This document shows, piece after piece, positions 15,805 through 21,404 of a stretch of DNA of 40,618 nt. The translations under genes and the position numbers were made by a program. The stretch covers positions 1-40,618 of the forward strand of contig JAJQCD010000007.1 of NCBI GenBank assembly GCA_021202925.1. Direction: 5' to 3'. Numbering within the stretch: position 1 is the stretch's first letter; each line of letters begins with the position of its first letter. This DNA comes from Clostridiales bacterium (GTDB lineage Bacteria; Bacillota; Clostridia; Lachnospirales; Lachnospiraceae). The notes beneath the pieces were generated by a model. The model did no database searches. It saw only the letters and a list, made by a program, of their open reading frames with translations, and had not been told where the DNA came from.

Positions 15805-16077
15805 ATGGATAAGATTATTATTACCGTGCTGGGAAAGGATACGGTTGGCATTATCGCAAAGGTGTGTACCTATCTGGCAGAAAAGGGCGTGAATATTGAA
15901 GACATATCCCAGACGATTGTGCAGGATTATTTTAATATGATGATGATTGCGGATATCAGCCGTTCGTCCTGTTCTTTTGCGCAGATCGTGACTGATCTGG
16001 ATGCGCTTGGCGAGGAGATCGGCGTCAGAATCAAGTGCCAGAAAGAAGAGATTTTCACGAAGATGCACCGGATTTAA
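15805..16077 (+). CDS. ACT domain protein (UPF0237 family)
   Basis: A 90-residue single ACT domain. It starts [20 protein letters not shown], with the conserved glycine turn of ligand-binding ACT domains, followed by [19 protein letters not shown] domains bind amino acids or similar small ligands; a regulatory role for the PFL-family partner downstream is inferred, because the two genes are a widely conserved adjacent pair in Firmicutes and streptococci. The start follows GAGAGGGAGG, and the stop is 29 bp before the partner gene. Confidence 0.85.
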
Positions 16078-16106
16078 GTGGACGGCCGACGAGGAGGACA
16101 GGACAG

Positions 16107-17471
16107 ATGCTGAATATGTTTGAGGTGATCGAGACCAATAATATGATCGAGCATGAGAAGCTTGATGTGCGGACGATCACGATGGGGATCAGCCTGCTGG
16201 ACTGCTGCGACAGCAGTCTTTCTGCGCTGAATGAGAAGATTTATAACAAGATTACCAGCTATGCGAAGGATCTGGTGGCGACCGGCGAGGAGATTGCCAT
16301 GGATTTTGGCGTGCCGATTGTAAACAAGCGGATTTCGGTGACGCCGATCGCGCTGGTGGGCAGTTCCTGCTGTCAGACGCCGGAGGATTTTGTGACGATT
16401 GCGGAGACGCTCGACCGGGCGGCGAAAGAGGTGGGAGTGAATTTCATCGGCGGTTATTCGGCGTTAGTGTCGAAGGGCATGACTCCGGCGGAGGAGAACC
16501 TGATTCGTTCGATTCCGCAGGCTCTGGCGAAGACGGAACGGGTGTGCAGCTCCATCAATGTCGGTTCGACCAGGACCGGACTGAATATGGATGCGGTGCG
16601 GCTGATGGGAGATATCGTAAAGCAGACTGCGGAGGCGACAAAGGAACAGGATTCCCTGGGCTGTGCGAAGCTGGTCGTGTTCTGTAATGCACCGGATGAC
16701 AACCCGTTTATGGCGGGTGCCTTTCATGGAGTGACGGAAGCGGATGCGATCATCAATGTGGGCGTCAGCGGGCCGGGGGTTGTGAAGGTAGCGCTTGAGA
16801 AAGCACGCGGAGAGAATTTTGAGGTGCTCTGTGAGACGATCAAGAAGACCGCCTTCAAGATCACGCGGGTCGGACAGCTGGTGGCACAGGAGGCGTCCAG
16901 ACGTCTGGGCGTTCCGTTCGGTATCATTGATCTCTCCCTGGCGCCAACGCCCGCGGTGGGAGACAGCGTGGCGGAAATCCTGCAGGAGATCGGACTGGAA
17001 CGCGTGGGTGCGCCGGGGACGACGGCGGCGCTTGCGATGCTGAACGACCAGGTGAAAAAAGGCGGCGTGATGGCGTCTTCGTATGTGGGCGGTCTGAGCG
17101 GCGCGTTCATTCCGGTCAGCGAGGATCAGGGGATGATCGACGCAGTGAATGCAGGTGCACTGACACTGGAAAAGCTGGAGGCGATGACCTGCGTCTGCTC
17201 AGTGGGACTGGATATGATCGCCATTCCGGGAAGCACGACGCCGGAGACCATTGCCGGAATCATTGCAGACGAAGCCGCAATCGGTATGATCAACCAGAAG
17301 ACCACAGCGGTTCGCGTGATCCCGGTCATTGGAAAGACCGTGGGCGATACCGTAGAATTCGGCGGACTGCTCGGCTACGCCCCCGTCATGCCCGTAAACG
17401 AATTTTCCTGCGCTCAATTTGTAAACCGTGGCGGCCGAATCCCCGCCCCAATTCATAGTTTTAAAAACTGA
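16107..17471 (+). CDS. PFL family protein (UPF0210 / DUF711)
   Basis: A 454-residue cytoplasmic protein of the DUF711/UPF0210 family. It opens [21 protein letters not shown] and then [11 protein letters not shown], the family signature. The fold resembles the pyruvate formate-lyase barrel, hence its name, but no catalytic glycyl radical or PFL active-site Cys pair was seen, and the activity is unknown. The start chosen is ATG 16107 behind GAGGAGG. Directly downstream is the multi-hairpin element at 17485. Confidence 0.85.
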
Positions 17472-17484
17472 ACGTAACAATCCA

Positions 17485-17657
17485 GGACGGCGAGCCCACA
17501 ATCATAAAAATCTGCGTCAAGCTTGCTTGTAAGCAGATTTTTATGGTTGTGGGCACATCGGATGGACATCCGATGCTTCTTGAATGGCAAGTGCAGCCAT
17601 TCAAGAAGAGAGCCGTCCGCATTAGCGGAAGCTAAGGAAACGTGCAAGCTTGCTTGC
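17485..17657. repeat. Multi-hairpin intergenic element (cloverleaf-like fold, possible dispersed repeat)
   Basis: An outer stem GGACGGC (17485-17491) with GCCGTCC (17612-17618) encloses three hairpins. H1: 17494-17515 with 17533-17554, 22 bp with a single G-T pair. H2: CATCGGAT 17556-17563 with ATCCGATG 17568-17575. H3: 17576-17588 with 17596-17608, 13 bp. H4 (TCCGC 17616-17620 with GCGGA 17625-17629) competes with the outer stem, and H5 is GCAAGC/GCTTGC at 17644-17657. The string CAAGCTTGCTTG occurs in the H1 loop and again in H5. None is followed by a proper T-run. It could be a structured RNA, a palindromic dispersed repeat (MITE-like), or a processing site. Confidence 0.7.
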
Positions 17658-17696
17658 AAACGGTGCTTTTATCATTTTAAGAGGAGTTACATACGG

Positions 17697-18656
17697 ATGA
17701 CAATTTCAGATTATACCAGACGTCTGGAAGAGGAAACGGAGAAGATCATCGTCGGCAAACGCCGCCAGGTCGATCTGATTCTGATGGCGATTTTTTCCGG
17801 CGGCCATGTGCTGCTCAACGATCTCCCGGGGAGCGGCAAGACGACCCTGGTGAAGACGCTTTCCCTGGCGCTGGGCTGTGATTTCCGGCGCCTTCAGTTT
17901 ACGCCGGACCTGTTGCCGTCGGATATAGTGGGAATGACCGTTTTTAACCAGAAAACGTCCGATTTTGAACTGGTGAAGGGACCGGTTCACACCAATATTC
18001 TGCTCGCGGATGAGATTAATCGGGCGATTCCGAGAACACAGTCGGCGCTGCTGGAAGCAATGGAGGAAAAGCAGACGACGATCGACGGAACGACGCTGCC
18101 TCTGCCGGAGCCATTTGTGGTTCTGGCGACGCAGAATCCGGTTGAACGGGAAAGCACATTTATGCTTCCGGCTGCCCAGATGGATCGCTTTTTTGTCTGC
18201 CTGTCCATGGGTTATCCGACCGCCAGAGAGGAGGAACAGATTCTTCTTTCGCTTGGCGACGGGATACCGTATGAGCAGGTGAAGGCAGTGGTCAGTCCGG
18301 AAATTATCCGGCAGATCCGGGAGGAAACAACGAGTGTGCAGGTTTCGGAGCATTGCCTGCATTACATGGTGGATCTGGTTCAGCGCACAAGGAACTGCGA
18401 ATGGCTGGAGCAGGGCGGAAGCCCGCGCGCATCACGCAGTCTCTATCAGGGCGGAAAGACGTATGCGGCGATGCAGGGACGCGATTATGTAATTCCGGAA
18501 GATATCCAGGCAATCTGGGAGCCGGTGATGGAGCATCGGGTTGTGCTGACCGGCGAGGCGCGTTTTCAGAAGAAGACGCCGAAGCAGATCCTGGCGGAGA
18601 TTCTGGAACAGACTGAGGTTCCGCCGTACCGGAAGGAGCTGTTCCATGACCGATAA
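17697..18656 (+). CDS. MoxR family AAA+ ATPase
   Basis: A 319-residue AAA+ protein. Walker A is LPGSGKTT with K48, Walker B is ILLADEINRAIP, and the sensor region reads VLATQNPVERESTFMLPAAQMDRFF, all typical of MoxR. MoxR ATPases act as chaperones with a DUF58 partner, which is the next gene. The ATG at 17697 lies 10 nt after GAGGAG and gives the usual N-terminus. The open frame continues upstream through the hairpin element, but those residues are an artefact of the repeat. It overlaps the DUF58 gene by 11 nt. Confidence 0.9.
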   Translation: MTISDYTRRLEEETEKIIVGKRRQVDLILMAIFSGGHVLLNDLPGSGKTTLVKTLSLALGCDFRRLQFTPDLLPSDIVGMTVFNQKTSDFELVKGPVHTNILLADEINRAIPRTQSALLEAMEEKQTTIDGTTLPLPEPFVVLATQNPVERESTFMLPAAQMDRFFVCLSMGYPTAREEEQILLSLGDGIPYEQVKAVVSPEIIRQIREETTSVQVSEHCLHYMVDLVQRTRNCEWLEQGGSPRASRSLYQGGKTYAAMQGRDYVIPEDIQAIWEPVMEHRVVLTGEARFQKKTPKQILAEILEQTEVPPYRKELFHDR

Positions 18657-19974
18657 CCGAAGCAGCTGGTTTGTATCGGTTCCGGGGATTGGGTTTCTGC
18701 TGGTGCTGGCTGTTACGGCGATCTACTTCCGGTCATCGGTGATTGCCGTATTTCTTGCGGCAATGACCTTTCTGTGTATGTCTTCCCGTCTGTGGAGCGG
18801 GCGGGTCCTGAAGCGGCTGGAGGTGGGAGCCCATGCGGTTGTACGCTCCGCTCATGTAGGAGAGAGCCTGCGGCTGGACATGCGTGTGCGCAGCCGGAGC
18901 CTTCTGCCGGTGATCTGGATGGACGTGGTGCTTCTGACCGGAGCACGTCCGGTGGTTCGGCCGGAGGGAGAGGAAACCGATTTCTACTATACATGGAAGG
19001 ATGGAGAGAAACCACAGACTGCGGTGAGAGAACGCCTTGTCTGGCTCTGGTGGCAGCAGGAGGTTTCCTGGGAAGAGAAATGGATTGCGCTGCGGCGTGG
19101 AACCGTAGAGACAGGCGGAGTGTTTTTACAGGCAGGAGACGGATTTGGAATGAGTGCAGCGAAGCGGCAGGTGCGTTTTTCCACACCGATTCGCCTGCTG
19201 ATTTATCCGGAAATTGTGCCGGTGCGGGTGCAGCCCTTTTTGCGTGTCATTCAGGAGACGACGGCAGGGCGCCGGGGACAGACGGAGGATATCACGATCC
19301 TGAAAGGCAGCAGGGAATATCGCCCCGGCGATCCGATGAAACGGATCAACTGGAGGCTTCTGGCCGGAAGCGGAAAGATGGAGGTTAATGTATACGAGAC
19401 GATCACGCCCGGCTGTGTGACGTTTGTTCCGGATCTGGAGTCCTTTCGTGAGATTCGTGTGCAGAAGGAATCGGACGGAACGAGAAAGATACGGACATTC
19501 CTGATGGAGCGGGAGCTGGAAGAGATGATCAGCCTGATCGCTTCGTGCCTGCGGGCAATTCAGGAGAGAGGACTTCGGACCGCGCTTGTGATTCCCGGTT
19601 ATGGAAATCATGAAGCAGCGTTTTGTGTGCCGGGGGATGGAGAAAATGATCCGGAGACTGGCATGAATGCGCTGGCCATGATTGATTACCAGGCGGAGAT
19701 ACAGACCTTTCCCTATGAAAGATTCTGGCGGATGAGCCATCGTATGGGAAATGTATATATCTGCACCAGGAAGGACGTACAGACCGGACTGGGCAGTCTG
19801 GCGGAAGGACTCGGACGAAGCAGGGCGCATTTTCTTGCGCGGGAGCGGACGCAGGCGCAGACGGGCGAGTACGACTGCCTCTATGCGGACGATCTGATGC
19901 TGGATCGACCGAAGCTGGACTCTGTGCCGAAGGAGACGTTGATTGAAACAAAGATCGAACTGGGAGGAAAATGA
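18646..19974 (+). CDS. DUF58 domain protein
   Basis: A 442-residue protein with two closely spaced hydrophobic segments at residues 10-45 that anchor it to the membrane. The DUF58 signature GSREYRPGDPMKRINWRLLA lies near residue 225, followed by the VPDLE region of a vWA-like domain. DUF58 proteins pair with MoxR ATPases; the complexes are proposed to remodel or mature membrane and envelope proteins. It overlaps moxR by 11 nt and the next gene by 4 nt, so the three are translationally coupled. Confidence 0.85.
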   Translation: MTDNRSSWFVSVPGIGFLLVLAVTAIYFRSSVIAVFLAAMTFLCMSSRLWSGRVLKRLEVGAHAVVRSAHVGESLRLDMRVRSRSLLPVIWMDVVLLTGARPVVRPEGEETDFYYTWKDGEKPQTAVRERLVWLWWQQEVSWEEKWIALRRGTVETGGVFLQAGDGFGMSAAKRQVRFSTPIRLLIYPEIVPVRVQPFLRVIQETTAGRRGQTEDITILKGSREYRPGDPMKRINWRLLAGSGKMEVNVYETITPGCVTFVPDLESFREIRVQKESDGTRKIRTFLMERELEEMISLIASCLRAIQERGLRTALVIPGYGNHEAAFCVPGDGENDPETGMNALAMIDYQAEIQTFPYERFWRMSHRMGNVYICTRKDVQTGLGSLAEGLGRSRAHFLARERTQAQTGEYDCLYADDLMLDRPKLDSVPKETLIETKIELGGK

Positions 19975-21404
19975 TGGAGGAACGAATCAACCGTATGTTG
20001 AGCGGGCTTTGTGCAGTGACATCGGATCTTGCCGTCGTCTGTCTTCCCGTTGCTTCCATGACGGTTCTTTTTGGCATGGATGCCTCGGTCCGGTATTTTG
20101 TCTGGACGGGTTTTCTGCTCATTCAGCTGCTCGTCAATGAAGGGATGATCTCCATGGGAGCGCCGCTCAATCTCTATCTGGTCTGGAACGCAGTCGTCTC
20201 GGTTGCGGGAGTGTATCTGGCGACGACTGTTTTCACAGCAACTTATGGAGTGCAGGATCTGACCTTTCTCTTTGGAACCTGTGGGCTGGGAATCGCGGTT
20301 CATGGCAGTGTGTGCTCTTATTTCCATCATGGTTCCAACGGATTATCGCGCTATGTCGATATTTTAATTCTGGAGATCGCATTTTATCTGTATTCGGTCA
20401 GCTATCTGGGAAAATCGGGAGACGGAGAGCTGCTTGCTTTTTCCCTGCTCGTTCTTGTGATTGATCTCTTCACGATCAGCAGACTCCGCACGCGCGAGGG
20501 CTGCAAACGGATGATCCGGGGGAGTGGAATCGGCACGGGAATCGTGGCAGCAGCGGCGGTAGGCGTCTGTCTGCTGGCGGCCGGTACAGCGGCCGGTATT
20601 GCGTCCGGACAGATTCACAGCGCGGTCGATGCGATTCTGGTGATTGCATCGTACATCTGGAGGATCGTATCGGCGATCGGTTCTGCAATTGGTTTCGTAC
20701 TGGGGCATCTGATTATGCTTCTGATTCTGCTGATGCCGGCGACGCCTCAGTATGCACGGGAGAATGTGCTGGCCCGGATGGATGAAACGACATCGGAAAT
20801 TCTGGAGGAGACGGAATTTCTGATCCCGGACTGGGTGCTGGCTCTCGTGCTGGCCGTTGGCGCAGCTGTTGGCATTGGCCTGATTCTTTACCGGCTTCGC
20901 GGTGTACGGTTTCGGATACCGGAACCCAAAAAGACCGGAACACGGGTGACGAAAAAGAATCATTTCTTTGAGGAACTGGCCGTGGCTTTTACCAGGCTGA
21001 GGGAAAGGCTGCATTTTGCGTATCTGTGCAGACGCTATCGCCGGACGGCGGCGGGAGTCTTTCTCCTGGCAGAGCGAATTGGACATTCGATAAAAATGAG
21101 CCGAAAACCGTCGGAAAGTCCGGGAGCGTATGTGAGGCGGCTCGCCGGTGTGTGGGAAAATGGTGCGGAGCCGGAGGTCGATGCTGTCTCACGCAGCGAT
21201 GGGACAGCTGGAGGTTCAGAACTGGCCTCGCTTCTGGGGCTGGCGGATATGCTGGAACGCGTGTTTTACGCCGGGCAGAGTATCCGCCTGACCGATGAGG
21301 AGTATCGGAAGTACCGGTCCGTTTTGAAAAGGACAGGAGAGATCGCGAAAAACACGGCGAAGACAAATGAAAAAACAGATGCAAAACGCGGACTCTTGTG
21401 CTAA
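19971..21404 (+). CDS. Multi-pass membrane protein of the MoxR/DUF58 operon
   Basis: A 477-residue protein. Residues 15-200 contain about six hydrophobic segments, further ones lie at about 220-260, and one follows at about residue 285-305. The remaining C-terminal 170 residues are soluble and rich in Arg and Glu, with a DUF4129-like LRERLHFAYLCRRYRR and YVRRL pattern, which is a weak similarity. Many MoxR/DUF58 operons contain a transglutaminase membrane protein in this position; no Cys-His-Asp transglutaminase domain is seen here, so this may be the part without it. It is coupled to DUF58 by an ATGA overlap. Confidence 0.65.
   Translation: MMEERINRMLSGLCAVTSDLAVVCLPVASMTVLFGMDASVRYFVWTGFLLIQLLVNEGMISMGAPLNLYLVWNAVVSVAGVYLATTVFTATYGVQDLTFLFGTCGLGIAVHGSVCSYFHHGSNGLSRYVDILILEIAFYLYSVSYLGKSGDGELLAFSLLVLVIDLFTISRLRTREGCKRMIRGSGIGTGIVAAAAVGVCLLAAGTAAGIASGQIHSAVDAILVIASYIWRIVSAIGSAIGFVLGHLIMLLILLMPATPQYARENVLARMDETTSEILEETEFLIPDWVLALVLAVGAAVGIGLILYRLRGVRFRIPEPKKTGTRVTKKNHFFEELAVAFTRLRERLHFAYLCRRYRRTAAGVFLLAERIGHSIKMSRKPSESPGAYVRRLAGVWENGAEPEVDAVSRSDGTAGGSELASLLGLADMLERVFYAGQSIRLTDEEYRKYRSVLKRTGEIAKNTAKTNEKTDAKRGLLC

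Follow-up and report, generated by a model that had tools for sequence, protein, structure and literature searches.

Several described repeat families come close to the element analysed here. In the Bacillus cereus group, bcr1–bcr3 are presented as MITE-like, and bcr10 and bcr18 as repeats with a conserved secondary structure (PMC3446304); likened by the descriptions given there, the bcr1–bcr18 repeats share with the present element an intergenic position and a MITE-like or structured character, but they belong to another host group. A MITE with an inner minisatellite is described in Porphyromonas gingivalis (PMC4596501), and its repeated inner units recall a composite copy and the tandem arrays found in the family studied here, although in the latter the repeated unit is the whole three-hairpin core. 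The REP repeats of the GTAG and CGTC superfamilies, as characterized in PMC3733652, are likewise dispersed palindromes; they measure 20–40 bp, in contrast to the ~150 bp of the present element with its terminal inverted repeats and 8-bp duplications. Closest in its ends is the ISBst12 group of the IS66 family, for which PMC12898284 gives ISDge4 as an element with ends GTGACTACTCAGCA/GTAACTGCTCAGCA, one transposase gene and an 8-bp repeat. The likeness lies in the GTAAC...TCAG ends, the 8-bp duplication and the single IS66-type gene of a presumed helper, L188; the difference is that the repeat has no transposase gene, and that the two core motifs were not found in L188 or L179. A search of the open-licence literature on bacterial MITEs and palindromic repeats, including those of Lachnospiraceae, found no description of this MITE family.

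The element lies in the window, by which we mean the whole stretch of DNA analysed, 40,618 nt from a Clostridiales bacterium of the Lachnospiraceae (GenBank assembly GCA_021202925.1, contig JAJQCD010000007.1). It is, with high probability, a decayed copy of a ~150 bp non-autonomous MITE that is dispersed among gut bacteria and whose mover appears to be an IS66 transposase of the ISBst12 type. A MITE-like dispersed repeat was among the options of an earlier note on this DNA, and this is the option that the evidence favours, as the repeat is dispersed in several copies, carries inverted repeats at its ends and duplicates 8 bp of target, and as one relative has the site empty and a transposase gene shares the terminal sequences.

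The copy in the window

The repeat occupies positions 17474–17672, between a DUF711 (PFL-family) gene and a MoxR-type AAA ATPase gene, and comprises the following parts, listed with the flanking genes and with the basis of each assignment in brackets.

16035–17471, + strand: upstream DUF711/PFL-family gene, open frame as listed (PF05167, E 2.3e-198; NF003700); the true start is probably further inside the frame
17466–17473, + strand: left-border 8 bp AACTGAAC, place of the target duplication (the duplication length of the family is 8 bp)
17474–17484, + strand: 5′ terminal inverted repeat GTAACAATCCA (common family form GTAACNGTTCAG)
17485–17491, + strand: outer stem, 5′ arm GGACGGC (RNA fold, covariation)
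17494–17515, + strand: hairpin 1, 5′ arm, 22 nt (in the family, sequence free and pairing kept)
17516–17532, + strand: hairpin 1, loop GTCAAGCTTGCTTGTAA (conserved in the family, mean column identity 0.91)
17533–17554, + strand: hairpin 1, 3′ arm, 22 nt (RNA fold)
17556–17575, + strand: hairpin 2, CATCGGATG-GA-CATCCGATG (sequence conserved, 0.91)
17576–17608, + strand: hairpin 3 (base CTTCTTG/CAAGAAG conserved, upper stem covarying)
17612–17618, + strand: outer stem, 3′ arm GCCGTCC (RNA fold)
17617–17628, + strand: competing hairpin CCGC-ATTA-GCGG (sequence)
17619–17672, + strand: tail with probable second-unit relic (hairpin-1 loop variant TGCAAGCTTGCTTGCA at 17643–17658)
17697–18656, + strand: downstream MoxR-type AAA ATPase gene (PF07726, E 6.9e-59)

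The outer stem, the three hairpins, the competing fourth hairpin and the repeated CAAGCTTGCTTG string that the earlier note had read from the letters are all present, the second copy of the string at 17645–17656. The left boundary has to be moved: the note had begun the element at 17485, and the repeat reaches left to 17474, where the 5′ terminal repeat starts two bases past the DUF711 stop codon (TGA, 17469–17471). The arms of hairpin 1 contain one G-T pair, hairpin 2 has 8 pairs in the predicted fold and complementary arms of 9 nt, and the 13-nt arms of hairpin 3 are 17576–17588 and 17596–17608. The statement that chance cannot explain the fold is borne out by RNA folding of 17485–17657, which gives −94.5 kcal/mol against a mean of −49.75 (sd 3.95) for shuffled sequences, a z of −11.33, and none of the 200 shuffles folded as well.

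At the right border, by contrast with the left, the 3′ terminal repeat expected after 17618 is not recognisable, and no right copy matching the left-border 8-mer was recognised, which counts against the MITE reading of this copy. The window copy is an old insertion, partly decayed, in which the 3′ end has been lost and the left end, the outer stem and the three hairpins have been kept. Its tail carries at 17643–17658 what is probably the relic of a second hairpin 1: in G014:C35 this loop variant caps an isolated stem resembling hairpin 1, and in G014:C76 a partial second unit stands directly behind a full one.

As the earlier note had observed, there is no terminator tail; a scan for terminator-like sites with a T run gave none on the + strand, and the one on the − strand (17658–17643) compares with 0.6 expected by chance. 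The open frame that the note saw running from the element into MoxR (17523–18656, TTG start) is read-through, since the MoxR gene has an ATG at 17697 with AGGAG upstream, and the MoxR of G007, a genome of the same genus, is without the extension. Behind MoxR, the window frames 18646–19974 and 19971–21404 gave no Pfam or NCBIfam match at 1e-5.

Copies, ends and a candidate helper

The check for copies and target duplications that the earlier note had proposed gave a positive result on both. In the window's own genome a whole-genome search found two diverged relatives and a covariance model added a fourth member, so that there are four copies in all. Across the 24 genomes of the genus, blastn found copies in 12, and the covariance model matched 20 at E≤1e-3, with 333 matches in total, the largest number being the 122 of G019, followed for example by 69 in G022 and 33 in G014. 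Further afield, at least 49 of 397 genomes of the family matched the model at E≤1e-6, where hits of about 40–60 bits may include chance hairpins, and 398 genomes sampled from the phylum returned the own genome and one weak hit from the same family, with nothing outside the family; both searches used a stricter filter and scored seven candidates per genome, and their counts are lower bounds. A sequence pattern that spans hairpin 2 and runs into the first part of hairpin 3 matched at least 120 contig stretches, a figure that is not a census; among the matches listed are Enterocloster, Hungatella, Lachnoclostridium, Eisenbergiella, Caccovicinus, [Clostridium] asparagiforme and [Clostridium] citroniae, as well as unnamed Lachnospiraceae, Clostridiaceae, Eubacteriales and uncultured bacteria. 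An exact 21-base pattern of the 5′ end, which proved too strict, had no match across the genome contigs. Comparison by blastn with phages and plasmids gave no match; two IMG/VR contigs classed as viral (L164 and L165) carry copies, and prophages may accordingly carry the element.

The element is ~150 bp long, has no transposase gene and occurs in many dispersed copies. Both terminal repeats were located at 90 of 160 places, the ends being GTAACNGTTCAG and its reverse complement, with the exact sequence at both ends in 26 of the 90. In 19 of these 90 the 8-mers on the two sides match exactly, against a mean of 0.3 when the right flanks were shuffled (maximum 3 in 500), and 42 have an 8-bp duplication with at most one mismatch. 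Mean flank identity is 0.67 at 8 bp and 0.22–0.41 at 2–7, 9 and 10 bp, and the target sequence is AT-rich. Counted without a control, gene ends facing the element have their stop within 10 bp in 17 of 48 cases on the left and 5 of 43 on the right, and further gene ends read into the element, 9 on the left and 11 on the right.

DUF711 homologues occur in 24 of 24 genus genomes, and the most similar DUF711 protein found in the genus (93%) is that of G007. This genome has the same DUF711–MoxR pair with nothing in between, the distance from stop to start being 17 nt as against 225 in the window, and it provides an empty site. At L163 there is a likely empty site for L030, the flanks being about 70% alike. 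Relics stand at exactly the window's place behind the DUF711 stop in G010:C195 (L316) and G023:C6 (L317), where the downstream genes differ, so the absence in G007 could reflect loss of a shared old insertion, or the place could be a hot spot.

Units are also found in multiples. L298:740–1051 (genome G022:C68) is a 311-bp composite in which two units lie within one pair of terminal repeats, bordered by the 8-bp duplication AAAAATAA; the covariance model matches it twice, and the pair was apparently transposed as a single piece. Tandem arrays of units at about 130–150 bp spacing occur at G019:C3:13530–13972, L020, L048 and L117, and the loci examined include 11 same-strand neighbour pairs less than 400 bp apart.

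The search for a helper covered the IS66 family (PF03050), with ends sought within the fetched flanks, and returned 24 rows in 10 of the 24 genus genomes. L188, from a sister genome, is the sole row that has, within those flanks, both perfect ends and a duplication. It is 1812 bp long, runs from GTAACAGTTCAG to CTGAACTGTTAC, has 12-bp ends the same as those of the repeat and is bordered on both sides by AATTTTTT. A single 494-aa frame fills most of it; the protein matches PF03050 (E 5.8e-18) and scores 136.7 bits with NF033517, under the equivalog cut-off of 180, and it has relatives in 3 of the 24 genus genomes, its own included. L179 has near-identical ends and no duplication. In neither L188 nor L179 was there a match to loop 1 or hairpin 2 within five mismatches. 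At a further IS66-type locus, L189:1237 (genome G006:C57), one end, GTTACTATTCACGGGATGGGG, resembles the variant element end GTTACNGTTCACGGGGC, and the other end was not found.

From the matching ends we infer that the repeat would be moved in trans by an ISBst12-type transposase of the IS66 family, encoded as the only gene of its element. No IS66 transposase was detected at E≤1e-10 in the window's own genome, which counts against this mover but also fits the view of the window copy as a relic. The copy-rich genomes G014 and G023 (80 and 83% complete) also have no IS66 match, and another helper is thus possible. In the mechanism that we propose, the IS66 transposase would act in trans on GTAAC...TTCAG ends, and insertion would go into AT-rich targets, often at gene ends. 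The core fold would be held in those lineages in which the element is still moving, and would act, or be kept, in DNA, as a hairpin or cruciform exposed during copying. After insertion a copy, that of the window included, would decay.

Conservation of the fold and its possible causes

Covariation, which the earlier note had named as a further check, was assessed in 77 copies less than 88% alike, drawn from 128 full copies, and it is strong. In this set the structure pairs 91.1% of cells, compared with 76.6% when shuffled and 36–42% when slid; double changes occur at 47 of 62 pairs (670 double-change cells versus 187), and all three hairpins covary strongly. The note had held that a single copy without compensatory changes in relatives would make both a repeat family and a selected fold unlikely; the four copies in the own genome and the double changes set out here show the opposite on both counts. 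Identity is distributed as a mosaic, at 0.60–0.61 in the arms of hairpin 1, 0.91 in its loop, 0.91 in hairpin 2 and 0.97–0.99 in the base of hairpin 3, and 136 of 140 copies have a spacing of 42 nt between loop 1 and hairpin 2. Hairpin 1 is therefore an arm of nearly fixed length in which the pairing is kept and the letters are free. Watson–Crick pairing reaches 89.7% in hairpin 1 and 57.8% in the ends of the terminal repeats. It should be stressed that pairing between the terminal repeats is no evidence for a fold, because both ends must fit one transposase.

Whether the fold works as RNA or as DNA can be approached through the mismatches that it tolerates. In hairpin 1, G-U exceeds A-C by 55:37 in a first count, by 107:96 in 154 copies all placed in one register (summed from the table), an arrangement that inflates the mismatches of shifted copies, by 42:24 within clusters after correction of the register, in which 175 of 200 copies are in register 0 (27:16 and 52:38 at other cut-offs), and by 45:30 between close copies. 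These four counts draw on overlapping sets, and the lead of G-U in them is 1.1- to 1.75-fold. For hairpins 1–3 together the figures are 120 and 49, much of the difference coming from one hairpin-3 position that is U-G in 32 of the 77 copies; when states seen in few rows are counted, the ratios are 44:29, 61:49 and 71:49. The consensuses of eight clusters contain no G-U among 144 pairs (cut-off 6), and they differ from one another by 210 full Watson–Crick exchanges versus 34 one-sided changes. Among 109 copies with both neighbouring genes called, 34 have both genes on the strand of the element and 29 both on the opposite strand, 32 lie between divergent and 14 between convergent genes. There is thus no orientation bias in this count. 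The underlying gene calls are crude open frames, made at 112 of the 140 loop-bearing places, and the element was masked by artificial stops, so that genes reading into it have distances between −3 and −11.

It could be argued that the element is a structured RNA, transcribed and spread by the MITE, with the fold acting as a processing site, a stability element or a small RNA. The strong covariation would suit such a role, the excess of G-U over A-C in every hairpin-1 count, together with the pooled excess in hairpins 1–3, is a mild sign that the + strand is transcribed, and bcr repeats of B. cereus are reported in mRNAs in two strains (84 of 165 and 62 of 155; PMC3446304). We nevertheless consider this explanation improbable in view of the even orientation of the copies, 32 of which lie between divergent genes, and of the consensuses devoid of G-U. 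In addition, no Rfam family reached its gathering score in the window, the best weak matches being microRNA models far below gathering, and no promoter-like match was found within 17474–17672, while the one on the − strand at 17703–17674 is directed into the element from the right. The small RNA and the RNase III site proposed by the earlier note gained no support, and neither did a switch acting on MoxR, given the unbiased orientation and the gene pair of G007. Such a switch or processing site on a MoxR operon, for which the close spacing of the two genes in G007 (so that they are perhaps co-transcribed) could be cited, is very unlikely, as the element is missing from the pair in G007 and the family's copies elsewhere are flanked by different genes; our results demonstrate no role for either flanking gene, DUF711 or MoxR. 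A REP/REPIN-type repeat moved by a tyrosine transposase (RAYT) would also be palindromic, intergenic and present in many copies. Transposition of that type is not known to make a target-site duplication, however, and the terminal inverted repeats and 8-bp duplications leave this explanation with next to no probability. On balance we lean towards a fold that acts or is maintained in DNA, a preference that rests on the mildness of the G-U lead, the lack of orientation bias, the absence of G-U from the consensuses and two observations on close copies and on loop 1 that are given below.

Against selection on the fold stands, as its chief rival in our view, a mutational explanation: template-switch (quasipalindrome) correction during replication would copy changes from arm to arm, and the arms would pair as a side effect, under no selection of their own, with function confined to loop 1, hairpin 2 and the hairpin-3 base. 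We regard this as possible, if somewhat short of probable. Between close copies (61 pairs) there are 37 coincident changes versus 8.4 expected (maximum 17 in 2000), of which 31 are compensated, and template-switch correction could account for these as well as for the consensuses without G-U. The close arms of hairpin 1 pair better than the distant terminal arms, as correction would predict, but arms kept alike by a transposase are an unfair control. In one copy (L235:1488–1635, − strand, genome G419:C23) the loop of hairpin 1 is inverted between intact arms, and PMC8604942 attributes to template switching between inverted repeats both the homogenisation of the arms and the inversion of the spacer. 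The inversion is rare, however, being seen in 1 of 204 readable loops (20 further places have no readable loop), and correction would need either to homogenise without inverting or to have its inverted loops selected out. The nearly constant 42-nt spacing and the conserved loop suggest, moreover, that hairpin 1 gets read. Selection on the fold itself can be put forward tentatively, as a reading that falls short of even likelihood: the MITE would be a fold-dependent mobile element that requires for its multiplication, besides its ends, the three-hairpin core in single-stranded or cruciform DNA (or RNA). Hairpin 1 would then be an arm of fixed length and free sequence presenting a conserved loop to a protein, and selection on the fold would operate only in lineages in which the element moves.

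Significance for the family

In the usual view, a bacterial MITE consists of two ends with filler between them. In this MITE the filler is the most constrained part, and one arm of it keeps its pairing but not its letters. The family carries a warning against taking covariation by itself as proof of a functional RNA. Selection on a fold and template-switch correction in DNA are two easily confused causes of perfect hairpins, and the 333 matches in 24 genomes of one genus offer a natural data set for separating them.
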